A DNA stretch of 60,193 nt, from positions 1 to 60,193 of IMG/VR virus record IMGVR_UViG_3300030104_006323, one strand, 5' to 3'. Both the position numbers and the translations under genes were made by a program. This stretch comes from a virus. The notes beneath the pieces were generated by a model. That model had not been told where the DNA came from and ran no database searches. It saw only the letters and a list, made by a program, of their open reading frames with translations. This document shows, piece after piece, positions 192 to 59,377 of this stretch; within the stretch, counting starts at the first letter, position 1, and every line of letters begins with the position of its first letter.

Positions 192-1793
192 ATGAGCAAG
201 CAAGGCTACATTCCCAAACATTTACATTTCGATTCTGATGCGAGACAAAAATTAATGTCAGGAATTGAAAAGATTTCAAAAGCAGTCAAGAGTACTTTAG
301 GCCCACGCGGTCAAACTGTAATTATAGAAACCACAGATCAATTACGAGGATTGACTGTAACTAAAGATGGAGTTACGGTTGCCCGTAGTATTTTTTTAGA
401 CGACCCTGTCGAAAACTTAGCGATACAAATAATGAAGGAAGCTTCTAACCGCACAGCTAATTCTGCTGGAGATGGGACGACTACCGCTATTGTTTTAGCT
501 GAAGCGTTTGTCAAGGCAGGTAGTAAGTATTTGATCCCAACTAACAATACCACGCAGGTTGTAAGAAATATAAATAATATAATAAAAGACATTGTTAAGT
601 ATTTGGAGAAAAACTCAAAGAAGATATCAAACAATAGTTTGTTAGATGTAGCTAAGATCTCAGCAAACAATGATGCGGAGATTGGGAAATTAATATTCGA
701 TGCTTACCAGCAAGTTGGTAAAGATGGAATCGTTACGGTAGAGAGATCTCAAAACCACGAGACTTACGCGGAAGTTACACACGGAATTAAAGTAGATAGA
801 GGTTATTCTTCAAACTTATTTATAAATAATCAAAAGAAGGACGAGTGTATATTGGAGAATGTACGGGTGCTTGTATGCGACCAGGACATTAACAACATAC
901 TTCAAATTGAAAATGTATTAAAACCGATCATTCAAAAAAATGAGACCTTGCTTATCATTGCCGACTTAGGCACGAATGTGGTAAATACACTTGCAGCGAA
1001 TGTTGTTAGAAATGGATTGAAGCTATGTAATATACCAACTCCTTCCTTTGGTTATAAGAAGCATGAGCTTATGCAAGATATTGCTTTAACATTAGGAGCT
1101 AAGTATCTATCAGAAAAAACGGGTGATGATTTATCTACGGTTTCAGAAACAGACTTAGGAAAAGCTGATAAAATTATTGTAGGTAAATCCAATTCTGTTC
1201 TCATTACGAATAATGAACCAAGCGAAGAACTTAAAATGAGAATAGCTGAGCTTAGAGTTCAGAAAGAAAATACAGAGACTCCACAAGAAAGAAAGTTTAT
1301 TGATGAGAGAATAGCAAGTTTAGCTGGAGCTATTGGATGTATATATGTTGGTGGTAACTCTGATGTGGAACTAAAAGAAAAATTTGACCGAGTCGATGAC
1401 TCGGTATGTGCTGTGCGTTCCGCACTTGAAGAAGGTATAGTTGCTGGAGCAGGACTTGCTTTATATAATGCTTCTAAAACTATAATTAGTAACAACGATG
1501 ATACTGATTATAACACTGCATGTAATATAGTTCGAGAAGCTATTGTACAACCATTAGTTCAGATCTTAGAAAATGCAGGCATCAAACCAGAAAATATATT
1601 ATCAGAAATAAATGATAACACAAAAAAGAATTATGGTTATGATGTAAAGAATGAAAAGTTTGGAGATTTATTTAAACTTGGAGTTATAGATCCACTTAAG
1701 GTAACAAAGAATGCTTTGATTAATGCGAGCAGTGTAGCTACTACAATATTATCAACTAACGCTATTATTACCCATGCCCGAGTCAAAGACTAA
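192..1793 (+). CDS. groEL: Phage chaperonin GroEL (HSP60)
   Basis: 533-aa group I chaperonin, full length apart from the C-terminal tail. The equatorial nucleotide-binding motifs are present: TKDG with the Asp52 equivalent near residue 59, GDGTTT at about 93-98, and RVDD near 400-403 with the Asp398 equivalent, followed by EEGIVAGAG. Apical-domain residues that bind GroES and substrate are partly kept (RGYSSNLF, with Tyr203 replaced by Leu). The GGM repeat tail is missing. Phage GroELs are thought to fold capsid or other virion proteins in the host cytoplasm. The gene is first in an operon with groES, behind a consensus promoter. Its last 20 nt overlap the next small gene. Confidence 0.95.
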   Translation: MSKQGYIPKHLHFDSDARQKLMSGIEKISKAVKSTLGPRGQTVIIETTDQLRGLTVTKDGVTVARSIFLDDPVENLAIQIMKEASNRTANSAGDGTTTAIVLAEAFVKAGSKYLIPTNNTTQVVRNINNIIKDIVKYLEKNSKKISNNSLLDVAKISANNDAEIGKLIFDAYQQVGKDGIVTVERSQNHETYAEVTHGIKVDRGYSSNLFINNQKKDECILENVRVLVCDQDINNILQIENVLKPIIQKNETLLIIADLGTNVVNTLAANVVRNGLKLCNIPTPSFGYKKHELMQDIALTLGAKYLSEKTGDDLSTVSETDLGKADKIIVGKSNSVLITNNEPSEELKMRIAELRVQKENTETPQERKFIDERIASLAGAIGCIYVGGNSDVELKEKFDRVDDSVCAVRSALEEGIVAGAGLALYNASKTIISNNDDTDYNTACNIVREAIVQPLVQILENAGIKPENILSEINDNTKKNYGYDVKNEKFGDLFKLGVIDPLKVTKNALINASSVATTILSTNAIITHARVKD

Positions 1794-3317: not shown

Positions 3318-3551
3318 ATGGCAAACCCAAATAAATGTAAATTTCAAGTATTAGGAAAAGACCCTAATGATTCAAAAAAACCAGCAAGGTTTTCTGATGA
3401 CCCTAAAGTAAAAAAACAACAGCAAATGGATTTAGCTGCATGTAGAAGGGGAAAGAGAGAAGATTTTAAAAATAGAATTAAAAATAAAGGAAATGAACTC
3501 CTTCAAAAAGTTAAGACTACAGGACAAAATTTAAACATAATAAAAAAATAA
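3318..3551 (+). CDS. Small basic hypothetical protein
   Basis: 77 aa, starting 2 nt after the previous stop. Two Cys (CKFQVLG near the start and LAACRRGKRE) and many Lys. No family recognised. Its position makes it co-transcribed with the basic-protein island. Confidence 0.65.
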   Translation: MANPNKCKFQVLGKDPNDSKKPARFSDDPKVKKQQQMDLAACRRGKREDFKNRIKNKGNELLQKVKTTGQNLNIIKK

Positions 3552-11171: not shown

Positions 11172-13175
11172 ATGGCAATAAAATATTTATCTAATGTCAA
11201 TATAGACGGAACGCTAACGCTTACCGTAAACGCAGATAGTGACTCAACATATACTGGTATAGTAGTATCAGAAAGTGGATTACTAAAATACAGAACTAAA
11301 GCACAAATTCGTTCAGATATTGGGGCTGGAACAGGATCCATGAGTTCGTTTGAAGTAGCGGCAGATACAAATACTGCAACCACGACTATAACTGATGGTG
11401 ATACTCTATCTATCTTAGGTGGTACAGGAATTTCAACTGTATCTAATCCAGACGGTACGATTACAATTTCCGCTTCTGGAAGTGGAACAATGACTTCTTG
11501 GAAGATAGGATCAACAAGTGGTACTGCTCAAGATGTAAGTAATGGAGAACAAGTAGATGTAGTGGGTGGAACAAAAATTACAGGTAGTGTTGGCGGAACA
11601 AGAACAGTAACTCTTGAGCACGATGCTCAAACTCAATCTGATTCAACCACAACAGCTTCTTTAAGTTCTGGTGGGAATTTTGAAGTACCTACTGTTTCCG
11701 TAGACTCTACGGGTCATGTTACAGGTACTGATACTAAAACTATTACTATAGGTGCTTTTGACGACTATTCTGGTTGGAAACTTGACGCTAACACTTCAGG
11801 CTCAACTCTTTCAGTAGGCTCAGGAGCAACTGTGGACTTTATAGCAAGTACAGGTATAACTCTTACAAAAGCCTCAGGACCAAAGTTAACTATTACAAAC
11901 AGCCTTCCTTTTAATAATATTGGAACAGCGGGTGACTCTGGTTCATCAACTATTGCGGATCAAGGAACAATAACTATTGCAGGAGGTACGGGTATCTCTA
12001 CGGTAGATAATGGTTCGGGGACAATAACAATTACAGCTTCAGGAAGTGGAACAATGTCAAGTTTTGACATTAGTGATGGAACAACTACTGAAACAGTAGG
12101 TAATGGAGATACAATAACCTTTACTGCTCCAGCAGCAAATGCTGCTGATGCGGGTATTTTGCCAGTTGTTTCTGCAACAGACACGGTAACGATGGATTTG
12201 AAATTAGCAAGAGTCCAAAATATAACTGCATTAGATGATCCAGATTCAGATGAGTTAATTTATTATGATTCAAACAATGAGCAAAATCAAAGAATTGCAG
12301 TATCTAATATACACTTAAATGAGTTTGGTGTACCAACTGCTGATTTAAGTATAGGTTCTAAAAAACTAACTAATGTAGCAACAGGTGTTAGTAGTACAGA
12401 TGGTGTTAACTTAGCACAAGTTCAAGCTATAGCAGCTGGAGTTGGTGTATTCCAAGGAGGATACGATGCGTCAAACGATCCAGGTTCTCCTAATATTAGT
12501 GGAAGCAGTAATATCGCGTTAGATACTGGTGACTTTTTTGTAGTTACAGTAGATGGTGATATTACATTTAGTGATCAGACGGTAAGCGTTGAAGTAGGTG
12601 ATTTAATATTCGCTAACGCTGCAATTACAGCAAGCACCAACCCTGCGTCTACAGCTTACACTATTGTATTACAAGATCAAAATATTGCTGGAGTAGGTGC
12701 ATCAGATGGAGCAACAGAAAAAGGTGTTGCTGGATTTGATAATGCTGTATTTACTGCAACTGCAAATGGATGGATTCAATTAATTGATCAGAGTATAACA
12801 GCACAAAATTATGGTAGTGCAAGTAAAACTGTCACTGTAAACTTTGATAAGTTTGGTGTTGCACAATCAGCTGCTGAACAAGATATTGACATTACAGCAT
12901 CACAAGTTAGTGATTTCTGTACGGCAGTTAGTACATGTATTGCATCAAATGAGCAGTATAGTGAATTGATAGGTACAGGAAGTACACCTACTACATATAC
13001 TGTAAATCACCAATTAGGAACTGATGTAATGGTTCAGTTGTATGATACCTCATCAGGAGATACAGTTTATGCAGAAAGTGTAAGAACAGCAGCAAACAGT
13101 GGTACAGTAACTATATCAACAAACTCAGCTATTGCAACCAATGGAGTAAAAGTATTAGTTACGAAAGTATCTTAA
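11172..13175 (+). CDS. Tail fibre protein 1
   Basis: 667 aa of Ser/Thr/Gly/Val-rich sequence with internal repeats of the form GGTGIST-V, GTITI-ASGSGTM and GNGD-ITF, typical of triple-beta fibre shafts. Residues 1-53 (MAIKYLSN-NIDGTLTLTVNAD...) are nearly identical to the start of the next gene and form a shared anchor. A globular C-terminus with YTVNHQLGTDVMVQL follows. Two fibres with a common anchor suggest alternative or stacked receptor-binding proteins. Confidence 0.75.
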   Translation: MAIKYLSNVNIDGTLTLTVNADSDSTYTGIVVSESGLLKYRTKAQIRSDIGAGTGSMSSFEVAADTNTATTTITDGDTLSILGGTGISTVSNPDGTITISASGSGTMTSWKIGSTSGTAQDVSNGEQVDVVGGTKITGSVGGTRTVTLEHDAQTQSDSTTTASLSSGGNFEVPTVSVDSTGHVTGTDTKTITIGAFDDYSGWKLDANTSGSTLSVGSGATVDFIASTGITLTKASGPKLTITNSLPFNNIGTAGDSGSSTIADQGTITIAGGTGISTVDNGSGTITITASGSGTMSSFDISDGTTTETVGNGDTITFTAPAANAADAGILPVVSATDTVTMDLKLARVQNITALDDPDSDELIYYDSNNEQNQRIAVSNIHLNEFGVPTADLSIGSKKLTNVATGVSSTDGVNLAQVQAIAAGVGVFQGGYDASNDPGSPNISGSSNIALDTGDFFVVTVDGDITFSDQTVSVEVGDLIFANAAITASTNPASTAYTIVLQDQNIAGVGASDGATEKGVAGFDNAVFTATANGWIQLIDQSITAQNYGSASKTVTVNFDKFGVAQSAAEQDIDITASQVSDFCTAVSTCIASNEQYSELIGTGSTPTTYTVNHQLGTDVMVQLYDTSSGDTVYAESVRTAANSGTVTISTNSAIATNGVKVLVTKVS

Positions 13176-19819: not shown

Positions 19820-22251
19820 AACAAGTAGAAGTTAACTTAAAAGCAGCTGCATTTCCAGATGAATTTGCTACCGATGCACAGAAAGATACAATGGAATATG
19901 GGCTCCAAGTTGGACAGGCTATTCAATATGAATGGTTTAGAAAAGATAATGGAGCTTGTAGGTATTTGAATCAATGGGGCGAGTTTAATAGATTAAGGCT
20001 TTATGCAAGGGGTGAGCAATCTGTCGCTAAGTATAAAAATGAAATTGCTATTGACGGTGATTTATCTTATCTTAATTTAGATTGGACACCCGTTCCAATT
20101 ATACCTAAATTTGTAGACATTGTAGTAAACGGTTTAAATGATCGTTTGTTTAAAGTAAATGCTTTTGCAGAAGATGCAATGTCGGCAGAGAAGCGAGATA
20201 GTTTTCAGAAAAAAATTGAAGGAGAAATGTTAGCTAAGCCTTTGTTCAAACAAATTGAAGAAGACTTTGATTTAAATGTTTTTCAAACCAATGAGGATGA
20301 GCTTCCAGAAAGTAATGAGGAGCTGGAACTTTACATGCAAATGAAATATAAACCAGCTGTAGAAATTGCAGCTGAAGAAGCAATAGATACTGTATTAGAA
20401 CAAAATCATTATCAGGATATTCGTAAGAGAGTGGACTATGATATAATGACTTTAGGAGTTGGAATGACAAAGCATCAATTTTTACCTGGTCAAGGTATAC
20501 AATTAGATTATGTTGATCCCGCAAATGTTGTTTACAGTTACACAGAAGATCCTTATTTTAAAGATTGTTTTTATTGGGGTGAAATAAAAACTATTCCTAT
20601 GGCAGAGCTGGTTAAAATAAATCCTGACATAACTAATGAAGATATGGAAGAGATTGCTAAATACAGCCAATCCTGGTATAATTATTATAACAATGCTCAG
20701 TTTTACGAAAACTCTTTATTTTACAGAGACACTTGTACTTTATTATATTTTAATTACAAGACTACACACACTTTTGTCTACAAGAAAAAAGAAATGCCAG
20801 ACGGTACTTTCAAAGTAGTTCAGAAAGATGACACCTTTAATCCGCCAGAAGAAATGATGGAAGAAGGAAAATTTGAAAGAGTAGAAAAAAAGATTGAAGT
20901 ATGGTATGATGGTATTATGGTTATGGGAACAAACATTTTATTAAAATGGGAGCTGGCTCAAAACATGGTTAGACCAAAGTCTGCAAGTCAACACGCTCTA
21001 CCAAATTATGTAGCATGTGCGCCAAGAATGTATAAGGGAATGTATGAATCGTTAGTAAGAAGAATGATTCCTTTTGCTGATTTAATACAGGTCACTCATT
21101 TAAAACTACAACAAGTAATATCAAGAATGGTCCCAGACGGTGTTTTTATAGATGCTGACGGACTTAATGAGGTAGACTTAGGGACAGGTAACGCCTATAA
21201 CCCTGAAGATGCTCTAAGGCTTTATTTTCAAACAGGTAGTGTGGTCGGAAGAAGTTTCACTCAAGATGGTGAATTTAATAATGCTAAAGTTCCAATTACA
21301 CAACTTACCTCTAATAGTGGTGGAGCAAAAATGCAAATGCTCATACAAAACTATAATCATTATTTAAACATGATTAGAACAGTTACTGGTTTAAATGAAG
21401 CCAGAGATGGAACTTCACCTAATCCTGATGCTTTAGTGGGTGTTCAAAAATTAGCTGCATTAAATTCTAATACCGCAACAAGACATATATTAAACGCAAG
21501 TTTGTTTATAACTAAAAGATTAGCAGAAGGTATTGTTTTAAGAACTGCAGATGTATTAGAATATTCAGAGTTTAAAAACCAATTTGCTATGCAGATCGGT
21601 AAGTACAATTTAAATTTATTACAAGATATTAAAAATTTATATCTATTTGATTTTGGAATATTCTTAGAGTTGCAGCCTGATGAAGAAGAAAGAGCTATGT
21701 TAGAAGCTAATATACAAATGGCTTTATCTAAAAACGATATTAATTTAGAAGATGCTTTAGATATCAGAGAAATACATAATCTTAAAATGGCTAATCAATT
21801 ATTAAAAACTAAGCGTAAAAGAAAAGCTCAAGCAGAACAACAGCAAGCTATGCAACAGCAAGCTAATGCTGCGGAAATGCAACAACAAAATGCGATGTTA
21901 GCTGCTCAACAAGAGCAACAAAAAATAGCAGCTGAGACTCAATCCAAAATGCAAATAAAACAAGCTGAAATTGCAATGGAAATTGAAAAAATGAAAAATG
22001 AAGCTTTGTTAAAATCTCAACTTATGCAAACTGAGTTTAGCTATAATATGCAATTAAAAGGTATTGAGCAGTCTCAAATAGATAAAAGAGAAGAGGCAAG
22101 AGAGAAAGGAAAGTCTGATAGAATAAGTCAAGCTAACACACAACAGTCTAAACTAATAGAACAAAGAAAAAGAAATTTACCACCAATAAAGTTTGAATCT
22201 ACTGAGGATACTTTAGATGGTTTTGATTTAGCAGAATTTGGACCTAAATAG
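19816..22251 (+). CDS. Portal protein (crAss-like type)
   Basis: 811 aa, as long as crAss-like portals. Order: N-terminal wing, a core with PNYVACAPRMYKGMYESLVR and DLIQVTHLKLQQVISR, the stem and crown region with VTGLNEARDGTSPNPDALVG, then a long Gln-rich coiled coil (about 670-770) and an acidic end (DTLDGFDLAEFGPK). It forms the dodecameric DNA channel at the capsid vertex. Directly coupled to TerL and upstream of scaffold and capsid, the usual order. Confidence 0.85.
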   Translation: MKQVEVNLKAAAFPDEFATDAQKDTMEYGLQVGQAIQYEWFRKDNGACRYLNQWGEFNRLRLYARGEQSVAKYKNEIAIDGDLSYLNLDWTPVPIIPKFVDIVVNGLNDRLFKVNAFAEDAMSAEKRDSFQKKIEGEMLAKPLFKQIEEDFDLNVFQTNEDELPESNEELELYMQMKYKPAVEIAAEEAIDTVLEQNHYQDIRKRVDYDIMTLGVGMTKHQFLPGQGIQLDYVDPANVVYSYTEDPYFKDCFYWGEIKTIPMAELVKINPDITNEDMEEIAKYSQSWYNYYNNAQFYENSLFYRDTCTLLYFNYKTTHTFVYKKKEMPDGTFKVVQKDDTFNPPEEMMEEGKFERVEKKIEVWYDGIMVMGTNILLKWELAQNMVRPKSASQHALPNYVACAPRMYKGMYESLVRRMIPFADLIQVTHLKLQQVISRMVPDGVFIDADGLNEVDLGTGNAYNPEDALRLYFQTGSVVGRSFTQDGEFNNAKVPITQLTSNSGGAKMQMLIQNYNHYLNMIRTVTGLNEARDGTSPNPDALVGVQKLAALNSNTATRHILNASLFITKRLAEGIVLRTADVLEYSEFKNQFAMQIGKYNLNLLQDIKNLYLFDFGIFLELQPDEEERAMLEANIQMALSKNDINLEDALDIREIHNLKMANQLLKTKRKRKAQAEQQQAMQQQANAAEMQQQNAMLAAQQEQQKIAAETQSKMQIKQAEIAMEIEKMKNEALLKSQLMQTEFSYNMQLKGIEQSQIDKREEAREKGKSDRISQANTQQSKLIEQRKRNLPPIKFESTEDTLDGFDLAEFGPK

Positions 22252-58135: not shown

Positions 58136-58450
58136 TTATCTAAATTTATTATTAATTAATACTTCTTTGATTTTTTCAATTTTGAGATTTATCATATCAA
58201 TTTGGAAATACATTTTATCTTTATGGTGTTTCCAATTTGGAATTTTTTTGTCGTTGTCTCTATGAATATATGACCAGAGGCGCGTTTCTTCCTGTTGTAA
58301 TTCAATTAATTCATTGACTAAAAATTCTCTATTATCTTTGCTCAAAAAATTTTGGTCTTTTAACCACATTAAATGGTCTTGTTCTTCTTGCTCAGCTTCA
58401 GCTTCTGCCTTTTTGCGCCAAGCTTCTCTTTGTGATTCTGATATTTTCAT
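58136..58450 (-). CDS. Early coiled-coil protein downstream of the ribozyme
   Basis: 104 aa, nearly all helix: KISESQREAWRKKAEAEAEQ, LMWLKDQNFLSKDNREFLVN, ELIELQQEETRLWSYIHRDN. Its 5-prime leader is the hammerhead ribozyme; after cleavage the mRNA would begin 19 nt before this ATG. Function unknown. Confidence 0.65.
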   Translation of the reverse strand: MKISESQREAWRKKAEAEAEQEEQDHLMWLKDQNFLSKDNREFLVNELIELQQEETRLWSYIHRDNDKKIPNWKHHKDKMYFQIDMINLKIEKIKEVLINNKFR

Positions 58451-58463
58451 TTTAATTAATTTA

Positions 58464-58518
58464 AGTTAAGACCGCGCTTGGTGGCGCGGTTTCGGACTTC
58501 AGCCCTCATCAGTTAACT
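58464..58518 (-). ncRNA. Type I hammerhead ribozyme
   Basis: Minus strand, in order: stem I strand AGTTAA (58518-58513), core CTGATGA (58512-58506), stem II GGGC-TGAA-GTCC (58505-58494), core GAAA (58493-58490), stem III CCGCGC-CACCAA-GCGCGG (58489-58472) closed by the A58490-T58471 pair, cleavage base C58470 (GTC context) and stem I return strand TTAACT (58469-58464). Every conserved position of the hammerhead consensus is present and all three stems pair. Predicted cut is between 58470 and 58469. Confidence 0.92.
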
Positions 58519-58520
58519 AT

Positions 58521-59087
58521 TTAAGCTTTTTGGAAATTCTCCAATCTTTTAAGTTTTTCCGCGTTGGGTAAAGTGTCCCAATCACTTGGCTTTTCCCAGT
58601 TTGGAATTTGACTTTTCATTGTAGCAAATACAATTTTCTCTTTGTATTTAATCTGATCTGAAACGCTTTCTTTATTAGTCGATAGGTCTCCCAATAATAA
58701 AAATGTTTTCGCCATATTTAAAGCAGGATTTTTTGGCTCTGGCTTATCATCTAAAATTCCCTGATAGTCAGAATAAAATATTTTATTTAATTCCTTTGTT
58801 TTATAAGTACCTTTATTAATTAGGTCTTCAAGCTCATCAGTACTTAATTTAATAGCGTTTGCCCTGTCAATTTTCCAACTGCATTGAGTCATCTGCTTTG
58901 CAGTAGATGAGGAGTAACGGCTTTTATTTTCGTACCATTGACCGCCTACGCTGACAAATACAGGATAATAACCATATGACCTGACCACATACGCCCCCTT
59001 TTCAAATTCTGCGCTTAAATTGTTTGCCTGAAATTCTAATTTTTTAGCTACATATTCCGCGCTGTTTTTATTACTTATTCTATCCAT
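58521..59087 (-). CDS. Early conserved protein (DUF8033-like)
   Basis: 188 aa. YVVRSYGYYPVFVSVGGQWY, ENKSRYSSSTAKQMTQCSW is a pattern of a small domain found in many phage and plasmid early genes (family name from memory). The C-terminal part is helical (IPNWEKPSDWDTLPNAEKLK). Its stop codon is 3 nt from the ribozyme, so ribozyme cleavage would define the 3-prime end of this mRNA. Possibly a host-takeover or anti-defence protein; not shown. Confidence 0.65.
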   Translation of the reverse strand: MDRISNKNSAEYVAKKLEFQANNLSAEFEKGAYVVRSYGYYPVFVSVGGQWYENKSRYSSSTAKQMTQCSWKIDRANAIKLSTDELEDLINKGTYKTKELNKIFYSDYQGILDDKPEPKNPALNMAKTFLLLGDLSTNKESVSDQIKYKEKIVFATMKSQIPNWEKPSDWDTLPNAEKLKRLENFQKA

Positions 59088-59102: not shown

Positions 59103-59158
59103 TTATACAACGCCAACCCCTAAGGGCTGACCGCGTTGGGCTTAATGCCTGTTTATAC
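59103..59158 (-). ncRNA. Structured leader/spacer RNA of unknown class
   Basis: On the minus strand the spacer folds into a small hairpin GGC-ATTAA-GCC (59149-59139) and a larger one CAACGC/GCGTTG (59138-59108) enclosing CAGCCC-TTA-GGG(G)TTG. These are bounded by TATA and AAC/GTT pairs that reach into the preceding stop codon. It is GC-rich against an AT-rich background. Not recognised as a known riboswitch or ribozyme. Confidence 0.45.
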
Positions 59159-59377
59159 TCGCCCAAACGAGTTTTTAAATTCCTCTATGTATAAGTTTAT
59201 TAACACATAGAACAGGAATACTTGGAACGCTAAGATTAACCCAAACACCCCAAGCGCAACGAATCCCTCGATTTCTTTTGCAACTTCCCACATCATGCGC
59301 ACTGCTGAGATTAAAACAACTGAACAACACGCGCCCAGAATTAGAACTTGAATTTTTTTTGCTATTGAATTTTTCAT
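59153..59377 (-). CDS. Two-span membrane protein, first gene of the early operon
   Basis: 74 aa: basic start, span 1 about residues 10-27 (VLILGACCSVVLISAVRM), span 2 about 40-62 (ALGVFGLILAFQVFLFYVL), basic end. First gene transcribed from the strong leftward promoter, so expressed immediately on infection. Candidate superinfection-exclusion or host-membrane protein; inferred from position only. Confidence 0.65.
   Translation of the reverse strand: MKNSIAKKIQVLILGACCSVVLISAVRMMWEVAKEIEGFVALGVFGLILAFQVFLFYVLINLYIEEFKNSFGRV

Follow-up and report, generated by a model that had tools for sequence, protein, structure and literature searches.

The stretch of DNA analyzed here (the window) comprises 60,193 nt of a viral genome, positions 1 to 60,193 of IMG/VR record IMGVR_UViG_3300030104_006323. 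Among named phages, its terminase is closest to that of Elemovirus (45% identity), followed by Cellulophaga and Tenacibaculum phages of the Pachyviridae and Pervagoviridae (32 to 37%); in uncultured records, terminases up to 93% identical are found. The crAss-like label given to the virus in the initial annotation is not supported, since the only crAss-like match has 25% identity and covers 40% of the terminase protein, compared to 45% identity for Elemovirus. A GroEL homologue (PHROG 5725) is encoded at 192–1793 on the plus strand and is also present in MW202828 and in record G026. Collinearity with record G013 extends over the 46–54 kb part of the window; past it, the small-gene region is unconserved. 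No DNA-level relatives of the early region were detected among named phages.

The small-gene region contains three consecutive minus-strand genes, whose early expression we infer from the position of the cluster beside replication genes (Table 1). The 188-amino acid gene has no relatives in IMG/VR or in the phage collection, and its AlphaFold model, built without an alignment, was unusable (pLDDT of 36.5). The 104-amino acid protein had neither a PHROG match nor a Pfam match above the cutoff. A hammerhead ribozyme lies between these two genes: the stop codon of the 188-amino acid gene (58523–58521) is separated from stem I by 2 nt, and the ATG of the downstream gene, at 58450, is located 19 nt past the predicted cleavage site. 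A candidate ribozyme of a second class, Pistol, is found on the other side of the 188-amino acid gene.

Table 1. Features of the ribozyme-containing region in the order of transcription (coordinates are those of the window).
Feature	Coordinates	Strand	Details
74-aa membrane-protein-like gene	59153..59377	−	ORF; weak Pfam membrane matches below the cutoff
Pistol-class ribozyme candidate	59106..59172	−	RF02679, 67.6 bits, E 3.5e-10; immediately precedes the 188-aa gene
Upstream gene, 188 aa, function unassigned	58521..59087	−	ORF; between the two ribozymes
Type I hammerhead ribozyme, complete	58464..58518	−	Loops close stems II and III; stem I is open
Stem I	58513..58518 with 58464..58469	−	AGUUAA (58518–58513) with UUAACU (58469–58464); 6 Watson-Crick pairs
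Core CUGAUGA (C3 to A9)	58506..58512	−	Every base matches the consensus
Stem II, GGGC-UGAA-GUCC	58494..58505	−	NNAA tetraloop; 4 pairs, one of them G-U
GAAA (G12 A13 A14 A15.1)	58490..58493	−	Every base matches the consensus
Stem III, CCGCGC-CACCAA-GCGCGG	58472..58489	−	6 GC pairs; minimum-free-energy fold agrees
U16.1	58471	−	A15.1-U16.1 pair (58490/58471) adds 1 bp to stem III
C17, cleavage-site nucleotide	58470	−	GUC triplet; predicted cut 58470/58469
Leader of the downstream mRNA after the predicted cut	58451..58469	−	19 nt, AU-rich (from sequence)
Downstream gene, 104 aa	58136..58450	−	ORF

Read on the minus strand from 58518 to 58464, the element consists of the consecutive segments listed in Table 1, from the 5′ strand of stem I to its 3′ strand, the latter also forming the first 6 nt of the 19-nt leader. 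The hammerhead core (C3 U4 G5 A6 N7 G8 A9, G12 A13 A14 A15.1, U16.1, and H17) is present in full, and the three helices of 6, 4, and 6 + 1 bp surround it in the type I layout: stems II and III end in loops, and stem I is the open one. The sequence, stems, and intergenic position given in the initial annotation are thus accurate to the base. The minimum-free-energy fold returned precisely these three stems; the folding stability as such was unremarkable (z of −1.9).

The bare pattern CTGATGA..GAAA..GTC was present in 16 of 100 shuffles (0.16 expected per window), and on its own, it would not convince. A strict descriptor that requires the three stems gave one hit in the window and none in 300 dinucleotide-shuffled windows. 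A search of the whole window with Rfam at gathering thresholds returned Pistol but no hammerhead. The best subthreshold score was that of RAGATH-1-hammerhead (RF03152; 25.8 bits versus a cutoff of 56.3), whose 5′ hairpin is poorly paired here, and Hammerhead_HH9 (RF02275) scored 15.6 bits versus a cutoff of 52. The initial annotation had held that such a miss would speak against the ribozyme, but the same cutoffs are blind to this viral class: 12 loci with clear viral hammerheads likewise yielded zero Rfam matches at gathering. The Rfam miss on the window is therefore no evidence against a hammerhead.

A first set of viral sequences was collected with the pattern CTGATGAGG..CCGAAAC..GTC, which leaves the pairing of stems I and III free. 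Almost all pattern matches with a stem III (108 of 112) also formed a stem I, 6 or 7 pairs long. Two covariance models were built with the window excluded: R1 was trained on 21 of these viral sequences, and R2 was built on sequences from a further search, aimed at the tetraloop form. They scored the window element at 47.1 bits (E of 1.6e-11) and 51.8 bits (E of 3.8e-14), respectively, scores that combine sequence with structure and reveal homology to other hammerheads. Covariation is seen in each of the three helices in both sets, with scores of 0.81 in the R1 set (0.16 when shuffled) and 0.89 in the R2 set (0.19 when shuffled); stem I covaries although its pairing was not imposed by the collection pattern. 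Two further model matches in the window were rejected as chance: an R2 match at 58849–58801 (E of 0.007), which lies inside the 188-amino acid gene and lacks GAAA, and an R1 match at 3385–3420 (E of 0.06).

In total, 272 distinct viral copies of this hammerhead class were found, and several contigs hold two to four of them. In 257 Gb of prokaryote genomes, the near-identical pattern matched 41 times, with the stems kept at 8 loci only, so the class is essentially viral. Being missed by current Rfam models, it is overlooked by annotation pipelines. A 6-bp stem I is the rule (198 of 234 copies). Stem II comes in two forms, one of 13 nt, mostly with a U-N-A-N-U loop, and one of 12 nt with an NNAA tetraloop. 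The base on the 3′ side of stem I was left unspecified in every search pattern, yet it follows the form of stem II: U is found at +7 in 77 of 78 tetraloop copies and A in 129 of 133 copies of the 13-nt form, which also carry A at −7 in 132 of 133 cases (counts uncorrected for kinship of the sequences). The window copy, with its UGAA tetraloop and U at +7 (58463), conforms to this rule. Such an association is the trace expected of a tertiary contact between loop II and stem I and suggests two docking forms, although it is a statistical one in sequences whose kinship was uncorrected. With a loop and flank that obey the class rule, the same geometry as in related phages, stems not reproduced in any of the 300 shuffles, and an E value of 3.8e-14 from a model blind to the window, the possibility of a chance match to a simple motif, which the frequency of the core pattern and the lack of an Rfam model at cutoff would favor, is already refuted as far as sequence allows. 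We consider it practically certain that 58464–58518 is a real hammerhead.

The position of the element with respect to neighboring genes was compared with that of the 228 viral copies that have sufficient flanking sequence, random GTC sites, which are mostly intragenic, serving as the null. The upstream stop codon falls within −21 to +10 nt of stem I in 200 of the 228 copies (null of 9.3%), the next ATG lies 15 to 40 nt past the cut in 148 (null of 8.7%), and a stop in or beside the ribozyme is combined with a 15- to 40-nt leader in 130 (57%, compared to a null of 2.2%). A sharper argument than this null is the clustering of leader lengths at 20 to 30 nt, the mode of the viral class, together with near-zero slack on the stop side. 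In 137 of the 228 copies, the ribozyme itself supplies the bases of the stop codon; examples are U4G5A6 of the core (offset −10), a UAA ending stem I, and a UAG formed with the conserved A−7 G−6. The window fits the placement rule, its stop lying just outside the ribozyme. Far from being unusual, as the initial annotation had it, this placement is the commonest among the collected viral copies, and hammerheads that flank single phage genes had been described by Perreault et al. 2011 (PMC3088659). Of the two targets considered in that annotation, self-cleavage of mRNA agrees with the data, with the cut mostly 20 to 30 nt before a start codon and a same-strand neighbor absent in only 3 of 163 non-spanned copies. 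The same strand data disfavor processing of antisense or concatemeric RNA. Strand, leader length, and stop-codon overlap all argue for mRNA, rather than antisense or genomic RNA, as the target.

Related phages were also examined for hammerheads; a descriptor covering all three hammerhead types gave zero matches in 13 Mb of shuffled sequence. The variable small-gene region still bears hammerheads in G013 (two of type I) and in G026 (one of type I and, by eye, one of type III). Elemovirus has one of type I and a candidate of type III, G025 has a type III candidate, and a further carrier is Cellulophaga phage phi19:3, with a predicted cut at 21775/21774 on the minus strand. The hammerheads of G026, G013 (both copies), phi19:3, and Elemovirus have the same geometry as that of the window. 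None was found in the near-complete relatives G017 and MW202828 or in the more distant phi38:1 and Gundel_1; the hammerhead is therefore inessential to the family. Type III candidates in the same phage group are located at ~36.6 kb (−) in G025, at 12328 (+) in L383, and at ~1493–1540 (+) in L367; in these, the downstream message would keep the ribozyme body at its 5′ end. We also observed a conserved unannotated 21-amino acid ORF (MRAI..FL.ELA..CP.ETKW) immediately upstream of the hammerhead in Elemovirus and G026 (L356:1577–1642 and, in L201, just before 10553), whose UAG stop is formed by A−7 G−6 of the ribozyme.

All 68 Elemovirus records contain the hammerhead. Among isolates ~98% identical over the hammerhead region, stem II exists in two compensated versions that differ by a two-pair swap: GAC/GUC in elemoE and elemoA_7-9A and GGU/ACC in elemoB, elemoC, and elemoA_1-5B. 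The pairing kept through this double change provides good evidence that the RNA is under selection, as judged from the aligned isolates. In a hybrid version, GAC faces ACC and two pairs are broken; elemoD and elemoF were assigned to it by alignment, and elemoE_10-3D by identity score alone. The hybrid isolates are viable, which shows that an intact stem II is not strictly needed for growth. The idea that the Elemovirus copy as such has decayed was rejected, since the isolate alignment confines the broken stem II to elemoD and elemoF (with elemoE_10-3D added by identity). An antisense gene annotated across the Elemovirus hammerhead (KNV13_gp34, NC_055855.1 14105–14212) and its equivalents are probably spurious.

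The Pistol candidate upstream of the 188-amino acid gene scores well above the family cutoff (34.5 bits) over model positions 1–68. The stop codon of the 74-amino acid gene lies inside its 5′ hairpin (stop offset −20). Cleavage in this family occurs before the last five consensus positions, and the cut thus predicted at 59111/59110 would leave a 23-nt leader. A C is found just before GCG where the 17 other viral Pistols compared all have A; its activity is therefore uncertain, and we judge the chances of an active and of an inactive ribozyme to be about even. As far as the sequence tells, the 188-amino acid gene is bracketed by ribozymes of two classes, the Pistol candidate and the hammerhead. 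Such a bracket is rare, and a general pattern of the two classes sharing a genome was rejected: Pistol was found in 0 of 94 hammerhead records and this hammerhead class in 0 of 14 Pistol records, while the positive control of the Pistol search recovered 15 of 15. According to Harris et al. 2015 (PMC4604425), ribozyme classes are often found in association with particular phage genes and with further ribozymes, so the nearness of ribozyme classes is known in general. Elsewhere in phage contigs, Pistol pairs occur 0.4 to 2.4 kb apart (L204, L209, L215, and L205). Rfam also reported, in Pistol-carrying viral contigs, a tmRNA model match of 81 nt only (L207:10544–10624, −) and a group I intron (L208:3984–4337, −).

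Hammerheads as processors of phage mRNA have already been proposed: in Perreault et al. 2011 (PMC3088659), hammerheads that flank single phage genes are suggested to process long transcripts. These phage and prophage elements resemble that of the window in core, intergenic sense-strand site, and proposed mRNA-cutting role, and several copies may occur per transcript; the phages are different, and the Pistol candidate on the same transcript is a feature of the window. The same text describes the HHphage element of the HF1/HF2 haloviruses, located 13 nt before a start codon of an early polycistronic transcript, where an early-mRNA 5′ end was mapped within 3 nt of the hammerhead cleavage site. 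HHphage has a variant core and an archaeal halophile host, while the window core is fully consensus. RAGATH-1-hammerhead (RF03152) shares the hammerhead core and a short open stem I with the window element but has its own 5′ hairpin and linker, which the window lacks. From the Pistol family (RF02679; Harris et al. 2015, PMC4604425), the window candidate departs by the C in place of the A invariant in the 17 viral Pistols. The Elemovirus hammerhead is, like that of the window, a type I element on the sense strand with a stop codon at the ribozyme; its stem II is of the 13-nt subclass and A occupies both −7 and +7, whereas the window copy is of the tetraloop subclass, and its leader is about 30 nt long.

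These data are best explained by a type I hammerhead that acts in cis within the sense strand of an early-type polycistronic phage mRNA, which it would cut in infected cells (a probability of roughly 0.8). This reading builds on observed sequence, structure, covariation, strand, position, and recurrence; cleavage in the infected cell, the chemistry of the ends, and an effect on stability or translation are predicted from hammerhead chemistry and position. The RNA would fold cotranscriptionally and then be cut at 58470/58469. The 188-amino acid message would acquire a 3′ end shielded by stems II and III and bearing a 2′,3′-cyclic phosphate, while the 104-amino acid message would begin with a short unstructured AU-rich 5′-OH leader of 19 nt. 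Stem I being short and AU-rich, the products would part after cleavage. The lifetimes and translation of adjacent genes within this rapidly changing cassette of small genes could thereby be uncoupled, a role that can be likened to that of a dedicated processing endonuclease site. Counting against this reading, only 14 of the 18 consensus hammerheads tested by Perreault et al. 2011 (PMC3088659) cleaved in vitro, several relatives have no hammerhead, and Elemovirus isolates with the hybrid stem II still grow. The flanking genes, moreover, are unconserved and thus single out no gene as the one regulated.

The frequent overlap with stop codons brings up a more elaborate version, in which a ribosome finishing the upstream gene keeps the ribozyme unfolded, so that cleavage occurs only between ribosomes and message separation is coupled to upstream translation. 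Consistent with such gating, the upstream stop lies inside the ribozyme in 137 of 228 copies, often at U4G5A6 (offset −10) or as the A−7 G−6 UAG, and in the window, the stop precedes stem I by 2 nt. The window stop itself is nevertheless outside the ribozyme, UGAUGA of the core would in one frame halt any entering frame, and the overlap may reflect economical packing; we regard gating as rather unlikely. A stronger form, in which stop codon and ribozyme would be one unit, sharing their very bases in most copies, with the terminating ribosome gating cleavage and the polycistronic message being split by a readout of upstream translation, and with two ribozyme classes doing so on both sides of one gene in the window, appears to us unlikely. 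The bracketing of one gene by two ribozymes could also be read as a device for circularization. Cuts by Pistol and the hammerhead would free the 188-amino acid message with 5′-OH and 2′,3′-cyclic phosphate ends, a substrate for an RtcB-type ligase that would join them into a circular mRNA. Although copies paired around genes are also seen elsewhere (L057, L064, and L105; Pistol pairs in L204 and L209), no complementary ends that could hold the termini together were seen, the window Pistol has a nonconsensus core base, and Perreault et al. 2011 (PMC3088659) sought spliced or circular products and found none; circularization is thus highly improbable. Finally, the hammerhead could be a decayed or neutral passenger, brought by a small gene cassette and now idle, as its sporadic distribution, the unconserved flanking genes, and the viable Elemovirus hybrids with a broken stem would allow. 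Against this, the window copy is free of core or stem defects, and pairing is kept by compensatory change both in very similar isolates and across the 272 copies, which makes an idle element quite improbable.

To the proposal that hammerheads process phage mRNA, our analysis adds a placement rule, a loop/flank rule, cultured relatives with a built-in mutant, and a mixed Pistol-hammerhead bracket. We found none of the four described in the literature searched, whose coverage lacks most subscription journals and bioRxiv, and the accessible part of Perreault et al. 2011 (PMC3088659) contains no placement rule relative to stop or start codons. The placement rule is a specific prediction open to 5′-OH RNA sequencing. 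The role of self-cleaving ribozymes in phages has been a question since their discovery there, and it is made testable by cultured carriers, phages grown on Flavobacterium sp. BAL314 (Elemovirus) and on Cellulophaga baltica. In Elemovirus, near-isogenic isolates differ in stem II, which they offer in two compensated versions and as a hybrid with two broken pairs.
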